Shown piece after piece: positions 38,707 to 45,920 of a stretch of DNA of 64,000 nucleotides (its first letter is position 1; each line of letters opens with the position of its first letter). The stretch lies in the NCBI GenBank assembly GCA_019749835.1, contig JAIEPJ010000020.1:26412-90411 (forward strand), given 5' to 3'. A program made the translations under genes and the position numbers. The DNA comes from Phreatobacter sp. Lineage in GTDB: Bacteria > Pseudomonadota > Alphaproteobacteria > Rhizobiales > Phreatobacteraceae. Under the pieces are notes generated by a model. It had not been told where the DNA came from, did no database searches, and was given only the letters and a program-made list of their open reading frames with translations.

Positions 38707-39417
38707 TCATTTCATGCGGATCTCACCGGCATCGAAGGCGTCGGCGAGACCCGCCAAACTGGTGAAGCGGTAGTCCGGCTGCGTGAGGGCGGCATCGATC
38801 GTCCCGCCCGAATCCGCCTTGCCGGCCCGGCGTTCGATCCAGCAGACCGTGTAGCCGAGTTGCCGGGCCACGCCGATGTCGTGATATTGGCTCTGCGCGA
38901 CGTGCATCACGTCGTGCAGGCCATGGCCGTCACGCCCCAAACGTTGCAGCGTGAAGGTGAAAAAGCTCGGGTCCGGCTTCTCGCAACCCGTCTCATCGAC
39001 GGTGATGCTGTCGTCGAAAGGCTCGCCCAGGGTTTGGGCGAATTGGTCGAGTGCCCAGCGCTGGGCGTTGGTCATGGCAACCAGCTTGCAGCGGCTCTTC
39101 AAACGCTTCAGCGCGACCACGGAGTCGGAAAAGGCAGGCCAGTCCTTGACCGACGCGCGCAAGCCCTCGGCGATGGCACTGTCCTGCGGCAGGCCGAAGC
39201 GTGGCGCCAGCTCGAAATAGACCCGCACCAGATCGTCGGGATATTTGATGACGGCGGGGTTCTTTCGGCTGGTCCGATAAGCGGCCAGAAAAGTATCGTC
39301 ATCGATGGTGGCGAGTTCGTCGCGGCAGGCCCGCCTGAGATAGTTCAGCATGCCCGTCTCGAAGTCGATCAGGGTTCCCACAACGTCGAAGCTGAGAACC
39401 GCGGGGGTGTCGGCCAT
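38707..39417 (-). CDS. haloacid dehalogenase type II-like HAD hydrolase
   Basis: AVLSFDVVGTLIDFETGMLNYLRRAC; KLVAMTNAQRWALDQFAQTLG; CEKPDPSFFTFTLQRLG. Confidence 0.87.
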   Translation of the reverse strand: MADTPAVLSFDVVGTLIDFETGMLNYLRRACRDELATIDDDTFLAAYRTSRKNPAVIKYPDDLVRVYFELAPRFGLPQDSAIAEGLRASVKDWPAFSDSVVALKRLKSRCKLVAMTNAQRWALDQFAQTLGEPFDDSITVDETGCEKPDPSFFTFTLQRLGRDGHGLHDVMHVAQSQYHDIGVARQLGYTVCWIERRAGKADSGGTIDAALTQPDYRFTSLAGLADAFDAGEIRMK

Positions 39418-39831
39418 GTCGATCTCCGGATCCTTGCTGGCAGCAGCGTGCCTGTCAGGCTAGCCGGGCTGTGCGGTGCAATCGCCCGCGCGGTGCCCGT
39501 GCTGCGGCATCATCTGCCAAAAGCCCCTGATGATACCGACGGTCGTTGGGGGCCCCTCCCGATGGATGGCACGCCATCTATCCCCATGTGCTGCCCCACG
39601 GCTCTGGCTGGCGGCAGGATGGTCCCACGGCGCCGGTGCGATCAACGTCGCCGCCCTCGTCCAGCGACTGCTCCAGGAGACGCCTCGCCGGATCTGCCGT
39701 TGGAATCCCGCGGAACACCCACTTGCCGTGCGCCCTAAGCACAATTTACTGACGTATATTGCTGTGGAAACGTGCCCGATTCGGACGGGCTGTGTTTCTT
39801 GGGTGGCAATCGCGATCCTGGATGCCCGACG

Positions 39832-40710
39832 ATGGCTCTCGAGAATGTTTCCCTCTCCACGGCGCGGTTGCCCAATCCGCTCGCCAGCGACGGAAGTTCA
39901 AACGCCGTGAAGCGGCGCCATGCCATCCGCGTCGTCGGATCCGGCTCGCGCCCCATGGTGTTCGCCCATGGTTTCGGCTGCGACCAGAATATGTGGAAGG
40001 CCTTGGTGCCTGCCTTTCAGGATGACTTTCGCATCATCCTCTTTGACCATGTCGGCGCCGGCCAATCGGATCTCGCGGCATTCGACCCGGCGCGCTATGC
40101 GACGCTCGACGGCTATGCCGAAGACGTGTTGACGATTTGCGAGGCTCTGGATCTGCGTGACGTCGTGTTCGTCGGCCACTCGGTCAGCGCCAGCATCGGG
40201 ATCCGCGCGGCGCTCCTCCAGCCCGAGCGATTCTCGGACCTGGTCCTGATCGGGCCGTCGCCCTGCTATCTCGACGATGGCGACTACCGCGGCGGCTTCT
40301 CGGTCGACGCACTGGAGGAGATGCTTGAGTTGCTGTCGAGCAACTTCCTCGGTTGGTCCAGCGCCATGGCACCGGCGATCATGGGCAATCCCGAACGTCC
40401 GGACCTCGCGGCGGAACTGGAAGAGAGCTTCTGCCGTACCGATCCCGGCATCGCCGCCCATTTCGCGCGCGTCACCTTTTTCTCGGACACACGGGATGAC
40501 CTGCCCCGCATGGGCAAGCCGGCGCTCGTCCTGCAATGTTCGCAGGACGTGATCGCATCGGAGGTTGTCGGCCGCTATGTCGCTGACCACCTGCCACGGG
40601 GACGGTTCGTCCAGCTCGCGGCCACCGGACATTGCCCGCATGTCAGCCACCCAGAAGAGGTCGTCGCGCAGATGCGTCGCTATTTGAGCGATGCCAATGG
40701 ACGGGTCTGA
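39832..40710 (+). CDS. RsbQ-like alpha/beta hydrolase
   Basis: AHGFGCDQNMWKALVPAF, VGHSVSASIGIRAALLQPERFSDLVLIGPSPCYL, GRFVQLAATGHCPHVSHPEEV: strongly RsbQ-like, triad Ser/Asp/His present. Confidence 0.92.
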   Translation: MALENVSLSTARLPNPLASDGSSNAVKRRHAIRVVGSGSRPMVFAHGFGCDQNMWKALVPAFQDDFRIILFDHVGAGQSDLAAFDPARYATLDGYAEDVLTICEALDLRDVVFVGHSVSASIGIRAALLQPERFSDLVLIGPSPCYLDDGDYRGGFSVDALEEMLELLSSNFLGWSSAMAPAIMGNPERPDLAAELEESFCRTDPGIAAHFARVTFFSDTRDDLPRMGKPALVLQCSQDVIASEVVGRYVADHLPRGRFVQLAATGHCPHVSHPEEVVAQMRRYLSDANGRV

Positions 40711-42745
40711 TCGGTCGTTCGCCGACAACTTTTTCGATCAGGCTCCCGCCGGCCTGCTGTCGACCGATGGCGAAGGCGTCGTCCGCGCGGCAAACAGGAC
40801 ACTGCTCGGCTGGATCGGCCGGACCGCCGAGGAGGTGGTCGGGCAGTTCCGCTTCTCCGACTTGCTTTCGGTCGCGGGCCGGACGTTCTTCGAGACCCAT
40901 CTCGCCCCGATGCTCCGGCTGGACAGGGGCTTCCGGGAGGTTGCCCTGACACTGATGGGCCTGGACCGCACGCGCCTCGATGTTCTGGTCACCGCAACCG
41001 TCGATGCCGATGCCGATGCGATCCAGTTCGTCGTGTTCGAGGCCAGACAGCGGCGCGTCTACGAGCGGGAACTGGCCGCCTTGCGGGAGATGGCAGAGAC
41101 CCGCAGTTCGTGGCTGCGACAGGTCGAGGGACTCGCCGCCATTGGGGCCTGGTCGATCGACTTGGACACGAACGAGATGACGTGGTCGGACCAGGTCTTC
41201 ATCCTGCACGACCTGCCGATCGGCGCCCTGCCGACCGCTCGCGAGGCGTTAATGTTCTACCTGCAGGAGGACCGGGACCGCGTGCGCCGTCATCTCGCGC
41301 AGACGCGCGCGACGGGCTTGCCCTTTCGCTTCGATGCCGGGCTGGTCACGGCCACGGGCCGGCTCAGATATGTGCGCGCGACAGGTGAGCTCGAGCGCTG
41401 GGGCGGACGGCCCAAGCGGCTTGTGGGCGTCGTCCAGGACGTCACCGAGCAGCATGAGGCGGAGCTCCAACTGTGGCGCAGTGCCCATATGGATGGGCTG
41501 TCCGGGATCCCCAATCGCACGCTGTTCCAGAAGAGGCTGCGTGAAATGATCGACGTCGCCGGAGCAACAGGCAGCGTCGCACTTCTGCTGCTCGATCTCG
41601 ACGGCTTCAAGGAGGTGAACGATACGCGCGGCCACGATGCGGGCGACGAGGTGTTGCGGTCGGTGGCGGGACGGCTGCGATCCCTGTTCCCCGAACTGGA
41701 CTGCGCGCGCCTCGGCGGCGACGAGTTCGCGATCCTGCTCGCCAACGCCGAGGACCGGTCGGCAGTCGAGGCGCGGGCCGAGGCCATCCTCAACGCCGTC
41801 CGACGCGGGGTGCCGTTCTGCGGAGACTGGGTCTATGTCTCGGGGTCGATCGGCATCGCCTACTACCCGTTCGATGCAGCGACGGCCGAGGACCTTCTCC
41901 GCTTCGCCGACCTCGCCCTCTACGCCGCCAAGCGTTCCGGCAGGGCACGAACGAGCAGCTACAGCCCGACGATCGGCGCCCAGTTCACTGCGCGGCGCGG
42001 GGCCATCGAGATGGTCCGCGAGGCCGGCCTTGCCGGCGGCATCGTTCCCGCGTTCCAACCCTGTCTCGACCTTGCCGACGGGCGTGAGCTCGGATACGAG
42101 GCCTTGGTGCGGCTGCGCTCGGGTGGCGGCGAATTGGTGGGGCCCTCGGCATTCTGGGCGGCGATGTCCGACCCGGAGAGCCTTCGCATCATCGACGAGC
42201 GCATGCTGATCCTGGTCACGGAACAGATGGTCCGTTGGCGTGACGCGGGGATAGACCCCGGGATCGTCGCGCTGAACGCCTCAGAATACACGTTCAACGG
42301 TGGCGATTTTGCCCGGACCGTGCTTGACCGGTTGGAGCAGCTCGCCCTGCCGCCGTCCTCCCTGCGGATAGAGGTGACCGAGACGGTGTTCCTGGGCGAG
42401 AACTCGCGGGCCGTCGAGGTGGCGATCGCCGAGCTCGCGCGGGCCGGCGTCTCGATCGCGCTGGACGATTTCGGCACCGGCCACGCCTCGCTCATCCACC
42501 TGCGCGACTACCCGATCGACTGGATCAAGATCGACCGGTCCTTTGTCAGCGGCATGTCGCTCGTCGGTCGCAGCGGGACCATCGTCAAGGCCATGATCGA
42601 TCTCGCCCATGCCCTCGACATCCAGGTGGTCGCCGAGGGGATCGAAACCGAAGACCAGCGCATCTTCCTGCAGGGAGCCGGCTGCGATGCGGGCCAAGGC
42701 TTCCTGTTCTCAGCCGGTAAGGCGTTTCGCACCTCGCTAGCGTGA
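40691..42745 (+). CDS. PAS-domain diguanylate cyclase/phosphodiesterase (PAS-(PAS)-GGDEF-EAL)
   Basis: PAS (NFFDQAPAGLLSTDGEGVVRAANRTLLGWIGRTAEEVVG), GGDEF (RLGGDEFAILL), EAL (LGYEALVRLRSG; DDFGTGHASLIHLRDYPIDWIKIDRSFV); overlaps the hydrolase gene by 20 bp. Confidence 0.95.
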   Translation: MPMDGSDRSFADNFFDQAPAGLLSTDGEGVVRAANRTLLGWIGRTAEEVVGQFRFSDLLSVAGRTFFETHLAPMLRLDRGFREVALTLMGLDRTRLDVLVTATVDADADAIQFVVFEARQRRVYERELAALREMAETRSSWLRQVEGLAAIGAWSIDLDTNEMTWSDQVFILHDLPIGALPTAREALMFYLQEDRDRVRRHLAQTRATGLPFRFDAGLVTATGRLRYVRATGELERWGGRPKRLVGVVQDVTEQHEAELQLWRSAHMDGLSGIPNRTLFQKRLREMIDVAGATGSVALLLLDLDGFKEVNDTRGHDAGDEVLRSVAGRLRSLFPELDCARLGGDEFAILLANAEDRSAVEARAEAILNAVRRGVPFCGDWVYVSGSIGIAYYPFDAATAEDLLRFADLALYAAKRSGRARTSSYSPTIGAQFTARRGAIEMVREAGLAGGIVPAFQPCLDLADGRELGYEALVRLRSGGGELVGPSAFWAAMSDPESLRIIDERMLILVTEQMVRWRDAGIDPGIVALNASEYTFNGGDFARTVLDRLEQLALPPSSLRIEVTETVFLGENSRAVEVAIAELARAGVSIALDDFGTGHASLIHLRDYPIDWIKIDRSFVSGMSLVGRSGTIVKAMIDLAHALDIQVVAEGIETEDQRIFLQGAGCDAGQGFLFSAGKAFRTSLA

Positions 42746-42767
42746 GACCAGAGGTGAGGCGGGCGCT

Positions 42768-45700
42768 CTACTCGCCCGCGGGGGCGGCCGCGACCTGGGC
42801 CACGGCGGCAGCGCTCTCACCCGGCCGCCGGGTACGGAACATGCGCAGGACGAGGACGAAGAACAGGGGCACGAACAGGACGGCGAGGACGGTGCCCGCA
42901 ACCACCCCGCCGATCACACCGATGCCGATCGCATTCTGTGCGCCAGAGCCCGCCCCGCTGGCGATGGCCAGCGGTACGACGCCGAGGGTGAAGGCGAGCG
43001 AGGTCATGATGATTGGCCGCAAACGCTGGCGCGCCGCCTCCTCCGCGGCATCGGCCAGCGACAGGCCACGGTTGAAGCCCTCGCGCGCAAACTCCACGAT
43101 CAGGATGGCGTTCTTGGCGGTCAGGCCGATCGTGGCCAACAGGCCCACCTGGAAATAGACGTCGTTTGACATGCCGCCATACAGGGACGCCAGAACGGCC
43201 CCCAGCACGCCGAGCGGAACTGCCAGCAAGACGGCGGTCGGAATCGACCAGCTCTCATAGAGCGCCGCCAGGCAGAGAAAGACCACCAGCAACGACAGCA
43301 GGTAGAGCGCCAGGGCCTGGCCGGAGGATTGCCGCTCCTGGAACGAGATACCGCTCCACTCGAAGCCGAAACCGCCGGGCAGCTGCGCCACGAGCCGCTC
43401 CATCTCGTCCATGGCCTGGCCGGTCGTGTATCCGGCAGCCGGCAGGCCCTGGATCTCCCGCGAGGCAATGCCGTTGAACCGTTCAAGGCGGGGCGAACCG
43501 AACTCCCATTCGGTGCGGCCGAAGGCGGAGAAGGGCACCATCTGCCCCTGCGAATTGCGCACGAACCATTTGTCGAGATCGCCGGGCACCATCCGGGCAT
43601 CCGGCTGTCCCTGCATGAAGACCCGTTTGATGCGCCCTCGATCCATGAAGTCGTTGACGTAGGTCGCCCCCCATGCCGTGGCCAGGGTGGCGTTCACCTC
43701 GGTGACGGACAGGCCGAGGGCGCTGGCACGTTCCCAGTCCACGATGAGGCGGAACTGCGCTTCATCGTTCAGGCCGTTGGCCCGAACCCTGGACAGGACC
43801 GGGCTCGCCGCCGCCAGGCGAAGCAACTGGTCGCGTGCCGCCATCAGCGCGCCGTGGCCGAGACCGCCGCGATCGAGGAGTTGCAGGGCGAAGCCGGAGG
43901 CGTTGCCCAGCTCGCGCACGGCTGGCGGAGCCGAGGAGATGATCAGGGCGTCCTGATAGCGCGCGAAGCGCGCGTTGACCCGCTCCGTCAGGGCCTGGAC
44001 GCTGTTCTGCCGGCCGGGCCGCACGTCCCAGTCGCGGAGCGTGATGAAACCGAGCCCCGAATTCTGCCCGCGACCGCCGAAGCTGAATCCGTTGATCGCG
44101 AAGAAATTGTCGACGACGGCGCCTTCTTCCTCACGCAGATACCGGCCCAGTTCGTCCAGAGCGCGCTGGGTACGGTCTGCGGTGGCGCCAGGGGGCGCGG
44201 TCACCTGCGCGAAGGCAATGCCCTGATCCTCATTCGGCAGGAAGCCGCCAGGCAGGCGCAGGAAGCTGTATCCGAGAGCGCCCAGCAAGGCCACGTAGAT
44301 CAGCAGCATCCGCGCCGGCCGGCGCATGCTGGCGCGAACGCCACCGACATAGCCGCGGGTGATGCGATCGAAGCCACGGTTGAACCAGCCATAGACGCCG
44401 CGCGTGCCCTGGCCCGGCTTGTGCGGTCGCAGCAGGGAAACGCAGAGCACCGGCGTGAAGAAGATCGCGACCAGCACCGACAAGGTCATGGCCGTGGCGA
44501 TGGTCACCGAGAATTGCCGGTAGATGACGCCGACCGATCCGCCGAAGAAGGCCATCGGCAGGAAGACGGCCGAGAGCACCAGGCCGATGCCCACCAGGGC
44601 ACCGGTGATCTGGTCCATCGACTTCCGCGTGGCCTCCAGCGGCGAGAGATGTTCCTCCGCCATGACGCGCTCGACATTCTCGACCACGACGATGGCGTCA
44701 TCGACCAGCAGGCCGATGGCCAGCACCAGTCCGAACATCGTCAGGGTATTGACGCTGAAACCCAGCGCCTGCAGCACCGCGAAGGTGCCCAGCAGGACCA
44801 CCGGGATCGCCATGGTCGGGATCAGGGTCGCGCGGAAGTTCTGCAGGAAAATGAACATCACGACGAAGACCAGGGCCACCGCCTCGAGCAAGGTCAGGAT
44901 GACGCTCCGGATCGAGCGCTGCACGAAGGGGGTGGTATCCTGGAGATAGGCGACCTCGAGCCCTTGCGGGAAGCTCGGTCGGAGCCTGTCGATGGTGGCG
45001 CGAACCGCAGCGGCCGTATCGAGCGCATTGGCGCCGCTGGCGAGGCGGATGCCGATGCCGCTGGAGGGCTTTCCGTCCAGCTGGGTGGTGATGGAGTAGT
45101 TCTCGCCGCCGATCTCGACACGCGCGACGTCGCGCAGGCGCACCTGCGATCCGTCGGGGCGGACGCGCATCAGGATGGCCCCGAACTCCTCCACGGTCTG
45201 CAGGTAGGACGGGCCGATGATGGTGGCGTTGAGCTGCTGGCCGGGCATGGCCGGGAGCCCGCCCATCTCGCCGCTGGAGACCTGCACGTTCTGCGCCCGC
45301 ACCGCGGCCGCGACATCCGAGGGCGTCAGCCCGAAATTGATCAGCCTGGCCGGGTCCAGCCAGATGCGCATGGCGAACTGGGCCCCGAAGACCTGGAAGT
45401 CGCCGACGCCAGCGGTCCGGCTGATCGGATCCTGCACATTGGCCACGAGGAAGTCGGAAATGTCCGTGCGTTCCATCCGGCCGTCGGTGGATATGAACCC
45501 GACCACAAGCAGGAAATTGCCGGAGGATTTGACGACACGCAGGCCCTGCTGCTGCACCGTCAGGGGTAGGCGCGGAACTGCGAGTTGGACGCGGTTCTGG
45601 ACCTGCACCTGGGCGGTGTCGGAATTGGTGCCCGGCGCGAAGGTGAGCTGGATGCGCGCCGCGCCATCCTTGGTTGTCTGGGAATCGAAATAAAGCAGGT

Positions 45701-45920
45701 TGTCGATGCCGCTCAGCTGCTGCTCGATGACCTGTACCACCGTGGTCTGGACCGTCTCCGCGGAGGCGCCGGGAAACACCACATTGATGGAGATGGCGGG
45801 CGGCGCGATGGCCGGATACTGCGCCACCGCCATGTTGCGCAGGGCCAGCAGACCGGCGACCATGATGCCGATGGCGATGACCCAGGCAAAAACCGGTCGG
45901 TCGATGAAGAAGCGGGCCAT
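42768..45920 (-). CDS. RND efflux pump inner-membrane transporter (HAE1/AcrB family)
   Basis: MARFFIDRPVFAWVIAIGIMVAGLLAL; 1050 aa; LLVDDAIVVVENVERVMAEE. Confidence 0.96.
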   Translation of the reverse strand: MARFFIDRPVFAWVIAIGIMVAGLLALRNMAVAQYPAIAPPAISINVVFPGASAETVQTTVVQVIEQQLSGIDNLLYFDSQTTKDGAARIQLTFAPGTNSDTAQVQVQNRVQLAVPRLPLTVQQQGLRVVKSSGNFLLVVGFISTDGRMERTDISDFLVANVQDPISRTAGVGDFQVFGAQFAMRIWLDPARLINFGLTPSDVAAAVRAQNVQVSSGEMGGLPAMPGQQLNATIIGPSYLQTVEEFGAILMRVRPDGSQVRLRDVARVEIGGENYSITTQLDGKPSSGIGIRLASGANALDTAAAVRATIDRLRPSFPQGLEVAYLQDTTPFVQRSIRSVILTLLEAVALVFVVMFIFLQNFRATLIPTMAIPVVLLGTFAVLQALGFSVNTLTMFGLVLAIGLLVDDAIVVVENVERVMAEEHLSPLEATRKSMDQITGALVGIGLVLSAVFLPMAFFGGSVGVIYRQFSVTIATAMTLSVLVAIFFTPVLCVSLLRPHKPGQGTRGVYGWFNRGFDRITRGYVGGVRASMRRPARMLLIYVALLGALGYSFLRLPGGFLPNEDQGIAFAQVTAPPGATADRTQRALDELGRYLREEEGAVVDNFFAINGFSFGGRGQNSGLGFITLRDWDVRPGRQNSVQALTERVNARFARYQDALIISSAPPAVRELGNASGFALQLLDRGGLGHGALMAARDQLLRLAAASPVLSRVRANGLNDEAQFRLIVDWERASALGLSVTEVNATLATAWGATYVNDFMDRGRIKRVFMQGQPDARMVPGDLDKWFVRNSQGQMVPFSAFGRTEWEFGSPRLERFNGIASREIQGLPAAGYTTGQAMDEMERLVAQLPGGFGFEWSGISFQERQSSGQALALYLLSLLVVFLCLAALYESWSIPTAVLLAVPLGVLGAVLASLYGGMSNDVYFQVGLLATIGLTAKNAILIVEFAREGFNRGLSLADAAEEAARQRLRPIIMTSLAFTLGVVPLAIASGAGSGAQNAIGIGVIGGVVAGTVLAVLFVPLFFVLVLRMFRTRRPGESAAAVAQVAAAPAGE

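Follow-up and report, generated by a model that had tools for sequence, protein, structure and literature searches.

The DNA analyzed here, referred to as the window, is a stretch of 64,000 nucleotides from Phreatobacter sp. (contig JAIEPJ010000020.1). It contains a compact two-gene unit, with both genes on the same strand, located between a HAD-type gene and an RND efflux gene. The features of the locus are as follows (window positions, with the evidence in parentheses).

38707-39417, reverse strand: HAD-type gene to the left of the pair, pointing away from it
39832..40710, forward strand: RsbQ-type alpha/beta hydrolase, 292 aa (ATG 39832, TGA 40708-40710; phmmer, Foldseek)
40174..40194, forward strand: nucleophile elbow GHSVSAS with catalytic Ser117 (homologue alignment)
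40537..40557, forward strand: CSQDVIA with catalytic Asp239 (homologue alignment)
40627..40647, forward strand: GHCPHVS with catalytic His267 (homologue alignment)
40691..40710, forward strand: 20-bp overlap of the hydrolase and partner reading frames (ORF coordinates)
40691..42745, forward strand: PAS-PAS-GGDEF-EAL protein, 684 aa (ATG 40691, TGA 42743-42745; Pfam)
40724..41041, forward strand: predicted RsbP-type PAS1, residues 12-117, without a DIT motif at its end (signature positions; AlphaFold2 PAS fold)
40871..40924, forward strand: F-alpha helix of PAS1, residues 61-78, with R64, F66, H70 and P73; expected hydrolase contact (model; alignment)
41042..41128, forward strand: predicted helical linker after PAS1, residues 118-146 (AlphaFold2 model)
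41183..41434, forward strand: heterologous PAS2 (PAS_3), followed by a DVT (DIT-like) motif (Pfam; sequence)
41483..41947, forward strand: GGDEF domain with intact GGDEF motif at 41714-41728, residues 342-346 (Pfam E 1e-39; sequence)
42011..42712, forward strand: EAL domain with the EAL, N, E, DDFGTG, K, E and Q catalytic positions (Pfam E 2e-56; motif positions; MorA alignment)
42768-45920, reverse strand: RND efflux gene to the right of the pair, converging with it

The ORF coordinates and the 20-bp overlap given in the initial annotation match these ATG and TGA positions, and the same 20-bp overlap is found in the congener G002. Read from the overlap only, translation of the two genes may be coupled. 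A longer hydrolase ORF, starting at GTG 39772, is possible in the window. This start was ruled out by an in-frame stop in G002, where a TGA lies just upstream of the MTMALE start of the hydrolase, so that ATG 39832 is the likely start. A scan for sigma-70 promoters, which is uninformative for this bacterial group, found none.

The best match of the hydrolase among PDB sequences was B. subtilis RsbQ (1wom; E 6.9e-96, 325 bits in phmmer), followed by Olei00960 (248 bits) and KAI2-like proteins (206 bits or less). The AlphaFold2 model of the protein has a mean pLDDT of 89.7, and RsbQ 1wom ranked first among its Foldseek matches, with a TM-score of 0.96 by target length and 50% identity. The hydrolase, a Pfam Abhydrolase, is closest to RsbQ and not to KAI2/D14 or metabolic esterases. 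The RsbQ-like character proposed in the initial annotation is borne out by these matches and by the presence of all the motifs it quoted; the Ser/Asp/His residues that it described as retained correspond to Ser117, Asp239 and His267, which are invariant in 32 homologues. The window copy is the only hydrolase of RsbQ grade in the genome, the next paralogue being 26% identical.

Pfam assigned PAS_4, PAS_3, GGDEF and EAL domains to the partner protein. It thus starts with a PAS domain and has a GGDEF and EAL output, as first annotated, but the annotation had missed the second PAS domain. The AlphaFold2 model of PAS1 (mean pLDDT 90.6) shows a canonical PAS fold. Searches of PAS1 against PDB sequences returned weak PAS matches only. 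The C-terminal end of the domain, FEARQRRVYERELAA, is devoid of a DIT motif, as in the RsbP-type PAS class, and the DIT-like DVT is found in PAS2. When PAS1 was aligned with the PAS domains encoded downstream of the hydrolase at other RsbQ-type loci, N35, T69, H70, P73, R121 and E125 were almost or fully invariant. Positions in RsbP were assigned through the consensus of the class and not through the RsbP sequence itself; this consensus can be matched to the published positions with no gaps. On this basis, L59, F66, H70 and E83 of PAS1 are the equivalents of RsbP L48, F55, Y59 and E72, and alanine replacement of any of these four RsbP residues results in a null phenotype in B. subtilis (PMC3183031). 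All four are kept, the His at the Y59 position being the class residue (79/87 sequences), as are the equivalent of P62 and the further class positions L23 (L13), R64 (Q53, basic) and F67 (C56, hydrophobic). Changes were observed at C10 (A20) and P86 (D97), so that seven of the nine class positions are kept; in RsbP, replacement of C10 had a mild effect and P86A weakened the response (PMC3183031). Because the four null positions and seven of nine class positions are conserved, and because RsbQ-type hydrolases have a PAS neighbour in 107 of 116 loci (see below), the N terminus of the partner is, judged by its sequence, an RsbP-type PAS and not a random PAS neighbour.

The GGDEF and EAL motifs of the partner are complete. 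The RxxD inhibitory site is absent from its usual place in the GGDEF domain, as seen by sequence inspection, and all metal-binding and catalytic residues of the EAL domain are kept (E470, N529, E561, D592/D593, K613, E649 and Q669). Among NCBIfam families, the best relatives, though scoring below the cut-off, are phosphodiesterases, for example DibA. The partner is probably a protein that both makes and breaks c-di-GMP.

Among 12 genomes of the genus, the hydrolase and PAS region was present in two, that of the window and G002, and the pair was not found in the ten other congeners; because of this absence, it is an accessory element of the genus. The G002 proteins are 90% (hydrolase) and 93% (partner) identical to those of the window, and on a trimmed alignment the hydrolase of one congener is 92% identical. 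The congener G004 keeps both flanks, the left one up to 39536 and the right one from 42768 onwards. Because they are located on different contigs, the pair (39537-42767) appears to lie at a synteny junction, which suggests that it was either gained with a rearrangement or lost elsewhere. The HAD-family gene to the left of the pair is intact in the window and in G004; it appears broken in G002, where the matches are split over frames (L099:7993-8323).

In a survey of the genes downstream of RsbQ-type hydrolases, 107 of 116 encoded a protein with a matching PAS domain; relatives of the window are over-represented in this sample, which also includes a few duplicate loci. The outputs of these 107 proteins were histidine kinases (76), PP2C phosphatases (17), GGDEF (3) and GGDEF-EAL (4) domains, and seven had no assigned output. 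The gap between the hydrolase and PAS genes was zero, or the genes overlapped, in 80 of 106 measured loci. Nine loci were initially scored as being without a downstream PAS. In four of them, a different reading frame encodes an RsbP-type PAS, L019 has a PAS ORF in frame directly behind the hydrolase stop, and L107 and L108 encode KAI2-type hydrolases; L056 and L081 make up the remainder. Hydrolase and PAS1 distances correlated with an r of 0.82 over 100 pairs, uncorrected for species history; in 500 permutations, r did not exceed 0.20. Conserved adjacency in related genomes is thus evident: since G002 keeps both genes with their overlap and 107 of 116 loci have a PAS neighbour, the pairing is conserved and not due to chance.

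In the hydrolase tree, the window and G002 proteins pair up next to alphaproteobacterial loci of the kinase type (SH-aLRT 89%, not starred). The window hydrolase is about 60% identical to kinase- and phosphatase-coupled relatives and is placed apart from the hydrolases of the other GGDEF-EAL modules sampled. Its position within the alphaproteobacterial kinase group suggests that the output may have been swapped from a kinase in this lineage. The AU test, run on a quickly built tree in which branches are long, rejected a single clade of all four GGDEF-EAL loci (p 0.0006), and since these loci do not form one clade, capture of the output probably took place on more than one occasion. Two loci of other Rhizobiales carry RsbQ-type hydrolases before a GGDEF-EAL protein (L167:2400-4508) and a GGDEF protein (L188:3450-4772); their hydrolases group together, away from that of the window.

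Some alphaproteobacterial hydrolases lean towards the KAI2/D14 branch and not towards RsbQ, most clearly that of G055. The best PDB match of the G055 hydrolase was 7ukb, a reconstructed ancestral plant hydrolase (286 bits versus 184 for RsbQ), and the G383 hydrolase leans in the same direction more weakly (242 versus 200 bits for RsbQ); the G060 and G413 proteins were placed with this branch through their similarity to G055. Hydrolases of this branch are found upstream of PAS-GGDEF proteins at L107:4879-7058 (G055), L108:3976-6124 (G060) and L198:2653-4998 (G413), where the N termini of the PAS-GGDEF proteins are not of the RsbP-type PAS class. At L199:2725-5073, the G383 hydrolase directly precedes a PAS histidine kinase without an RsbP-type PAS, and hence the output varies in this branch as well. 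A second, KAI2-like sensor-to-c-di-GMP module may possibly exist in Alphaproteobacteria. We found no paper on the pairing of a KAI2-like hydrolase with a PAS-GGDEF or PAS-kinase protein among the open-licence literature.

Considering these data, we regard it as likely that the pair is a two-gene, bipartite RsbQ-PAS sensing module whose output is GGDEF-EAL. The hydrolase, which is soluble, would bind, and probably hydrolyze, a small hydrophobic ligand and would dock on PAS1 of a dimeric partner, at the F-alpha helix. The docking signal would be transmitted through the helical linker and PAS2 to the catalytic domains, and c-di-GMP turnover would change, most likely by degradation through the EAL domain. 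The direct contact between hydrolase and PAS1 is inferred by analogy with B. subtilis RsbQ/RsbP, in which F55A of RsbP, the equivalent of F66, breaks RsbQ binding (PMC3183031) and for which a published AlphaFold2 model of 2RsbP/2RsbQ places RsbQ at the PAS-linker interface (PMC12143880). Two observations count against the module, namely, the two changed class residues in PAS1 and the accessory nature of the pair, and PAS2 could dominate the input. The pathway initially proposed, from a processed ligand through PAS to c-di-GMP, is reasonable in view of the RsbQ-type hydrolase, its dedicated PAS partner, the intact GGDEF and EAL domains and their adjacency, but its processed-ligand order represents just one of the two models in the literature: either the ligand is delivered to the PAS domain, or the ligand-occupied hydrolase is the sensor that docks on it (PMC3183031).

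According to the former (model 1 of Nadezhdin et al.), PAS1 would be the sensor, and the hydrolase would load its product into the PAS1 pocket as a ligand or cofactor, with catalysis being essential and the complex transient. This is consistent with the invariant triad, with the null phenotype of RsbQ triad mutants in B. subtilis (PMC3183031) and with the canonical PAS fold of the PAS1 model. We nevertheless consider it doubtful, although the foremost of the alternatives: no ligand of the RsbP PAS had been found as of 2011 (PMC3183031), RsbQ binding is disrupted at the very F-alpha positions that are class-conserved and needed for signalling, in keeping with docking, and D14 and KAI2, the relatives in plants, function as receptors. 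A different question is the direction of the output. A net synthesis of c-di-GMP, with a working GGDEF domain and a regulatory EAL domain, would agree with the intact GGDEF motif, the missing RxxD site and the GGDEF-only output of other RsbQ-PAS modules (L176, L177 and L188), but the complete set of EAL catalytic residues with the DDFGTG loop and the phosphodiesterases among the top NCBIfam relatives, though below the cut-off, make it unlikely. Very improbable, finally, is a hitchhiking or relic pairing, in which the hydrolase would be an ordinary esterase, with the GGDEF-EAL protein answering to PAS2 or other inputs. The rarity of the GGDEF-EAL output (4/116), the accessory nature of the pair and the loss of P86 and C10 in PAS1 point in this direction; the retention of the contact-class residues, the congener pair, which is 90-93% identical and has an overlap of the same length, and the class-wide adjacency of hydrolase and PAS speak against it.

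For the bipartite module in the window, the data show homology, fold, catalytic and contact-class residues and conserved adjacency; the ligand, the direction of its effect and the physiological response can be inferred only. We view as rather improbable the more far-reaching scenario in which GGDEF-EAL outputs were acquired independently in separate lineages, here replacing a histidine kinase, and in which, in a genus of Rhizobiales, biofilm and motility are switched directly by a butenolide- or lipid-type ligand. Perception of butenolides by RsbQ in B. subtilis has been reported (Melville et al. 2024, as cited in a review). A module linked to c-di-GMP would provide a readout, both simple and sensitive, with which to look for the natural ligand of RsbQ-type hydrolases, which has long been sought.

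The window pair is a real example of the RsbQ-PAS module that Nadezhdin et al. defined in 2011 with phosphatase, kinase and diguanylate cyclase outputs (PMC3183031), a modular view restated more recently (PMC12143880). As a novelty, the hydrolase-PAS-GGDEF-EAL system is not supported, and a new kind of system is ruled out, because modules with cyclase and cyclase-phosphodiesterase outputs were already published in that study (PMC3183031), at a time when the target was known for the B. subtilis module only. Additions to the 2011 picture are the rejection of a single clade for the GGDEF-EAL loci and the KAI2/D14-leaning hydrolases beside GGDEF or kinase proteins. The same architecture was described for Psychromonas ingrahamii A1SX34 (PMC3183031), with an rsbQ homologue immediately upstream, an RsbP-type PAS as the most N-terminal domain, a heterologous PAS2 and tandem GGDEF and EAL domains; this likeness is based on the published description only, and the lineage of the window differs (Rhizobiales). 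B. subtilis RsbQ-RsbP shares with the window the hydrolase fold, the triad, the adjacent gene order and the PAS1 class residues, whereas RsbP acts on RsbV through a PP2C phosphatase output and the window partner has a GGDEF-EAL output, with an extra PAS. The RsbQ-PAS histidine kinases of Rhizobiales, Caulobacter and Bradyrhizobium have the same hydrolase and PAS1 but differ in their kinase output, the commonest in our survey (76/116). Plant KAI2/D14 proteins have the same fold and triad, with about 36-39% identity in most fold matches, but are less similar to the window hydrolase than RsbQ is (205 versus 325 bits), and they are receptors that act through F-box proteins and not through a PAS partner.
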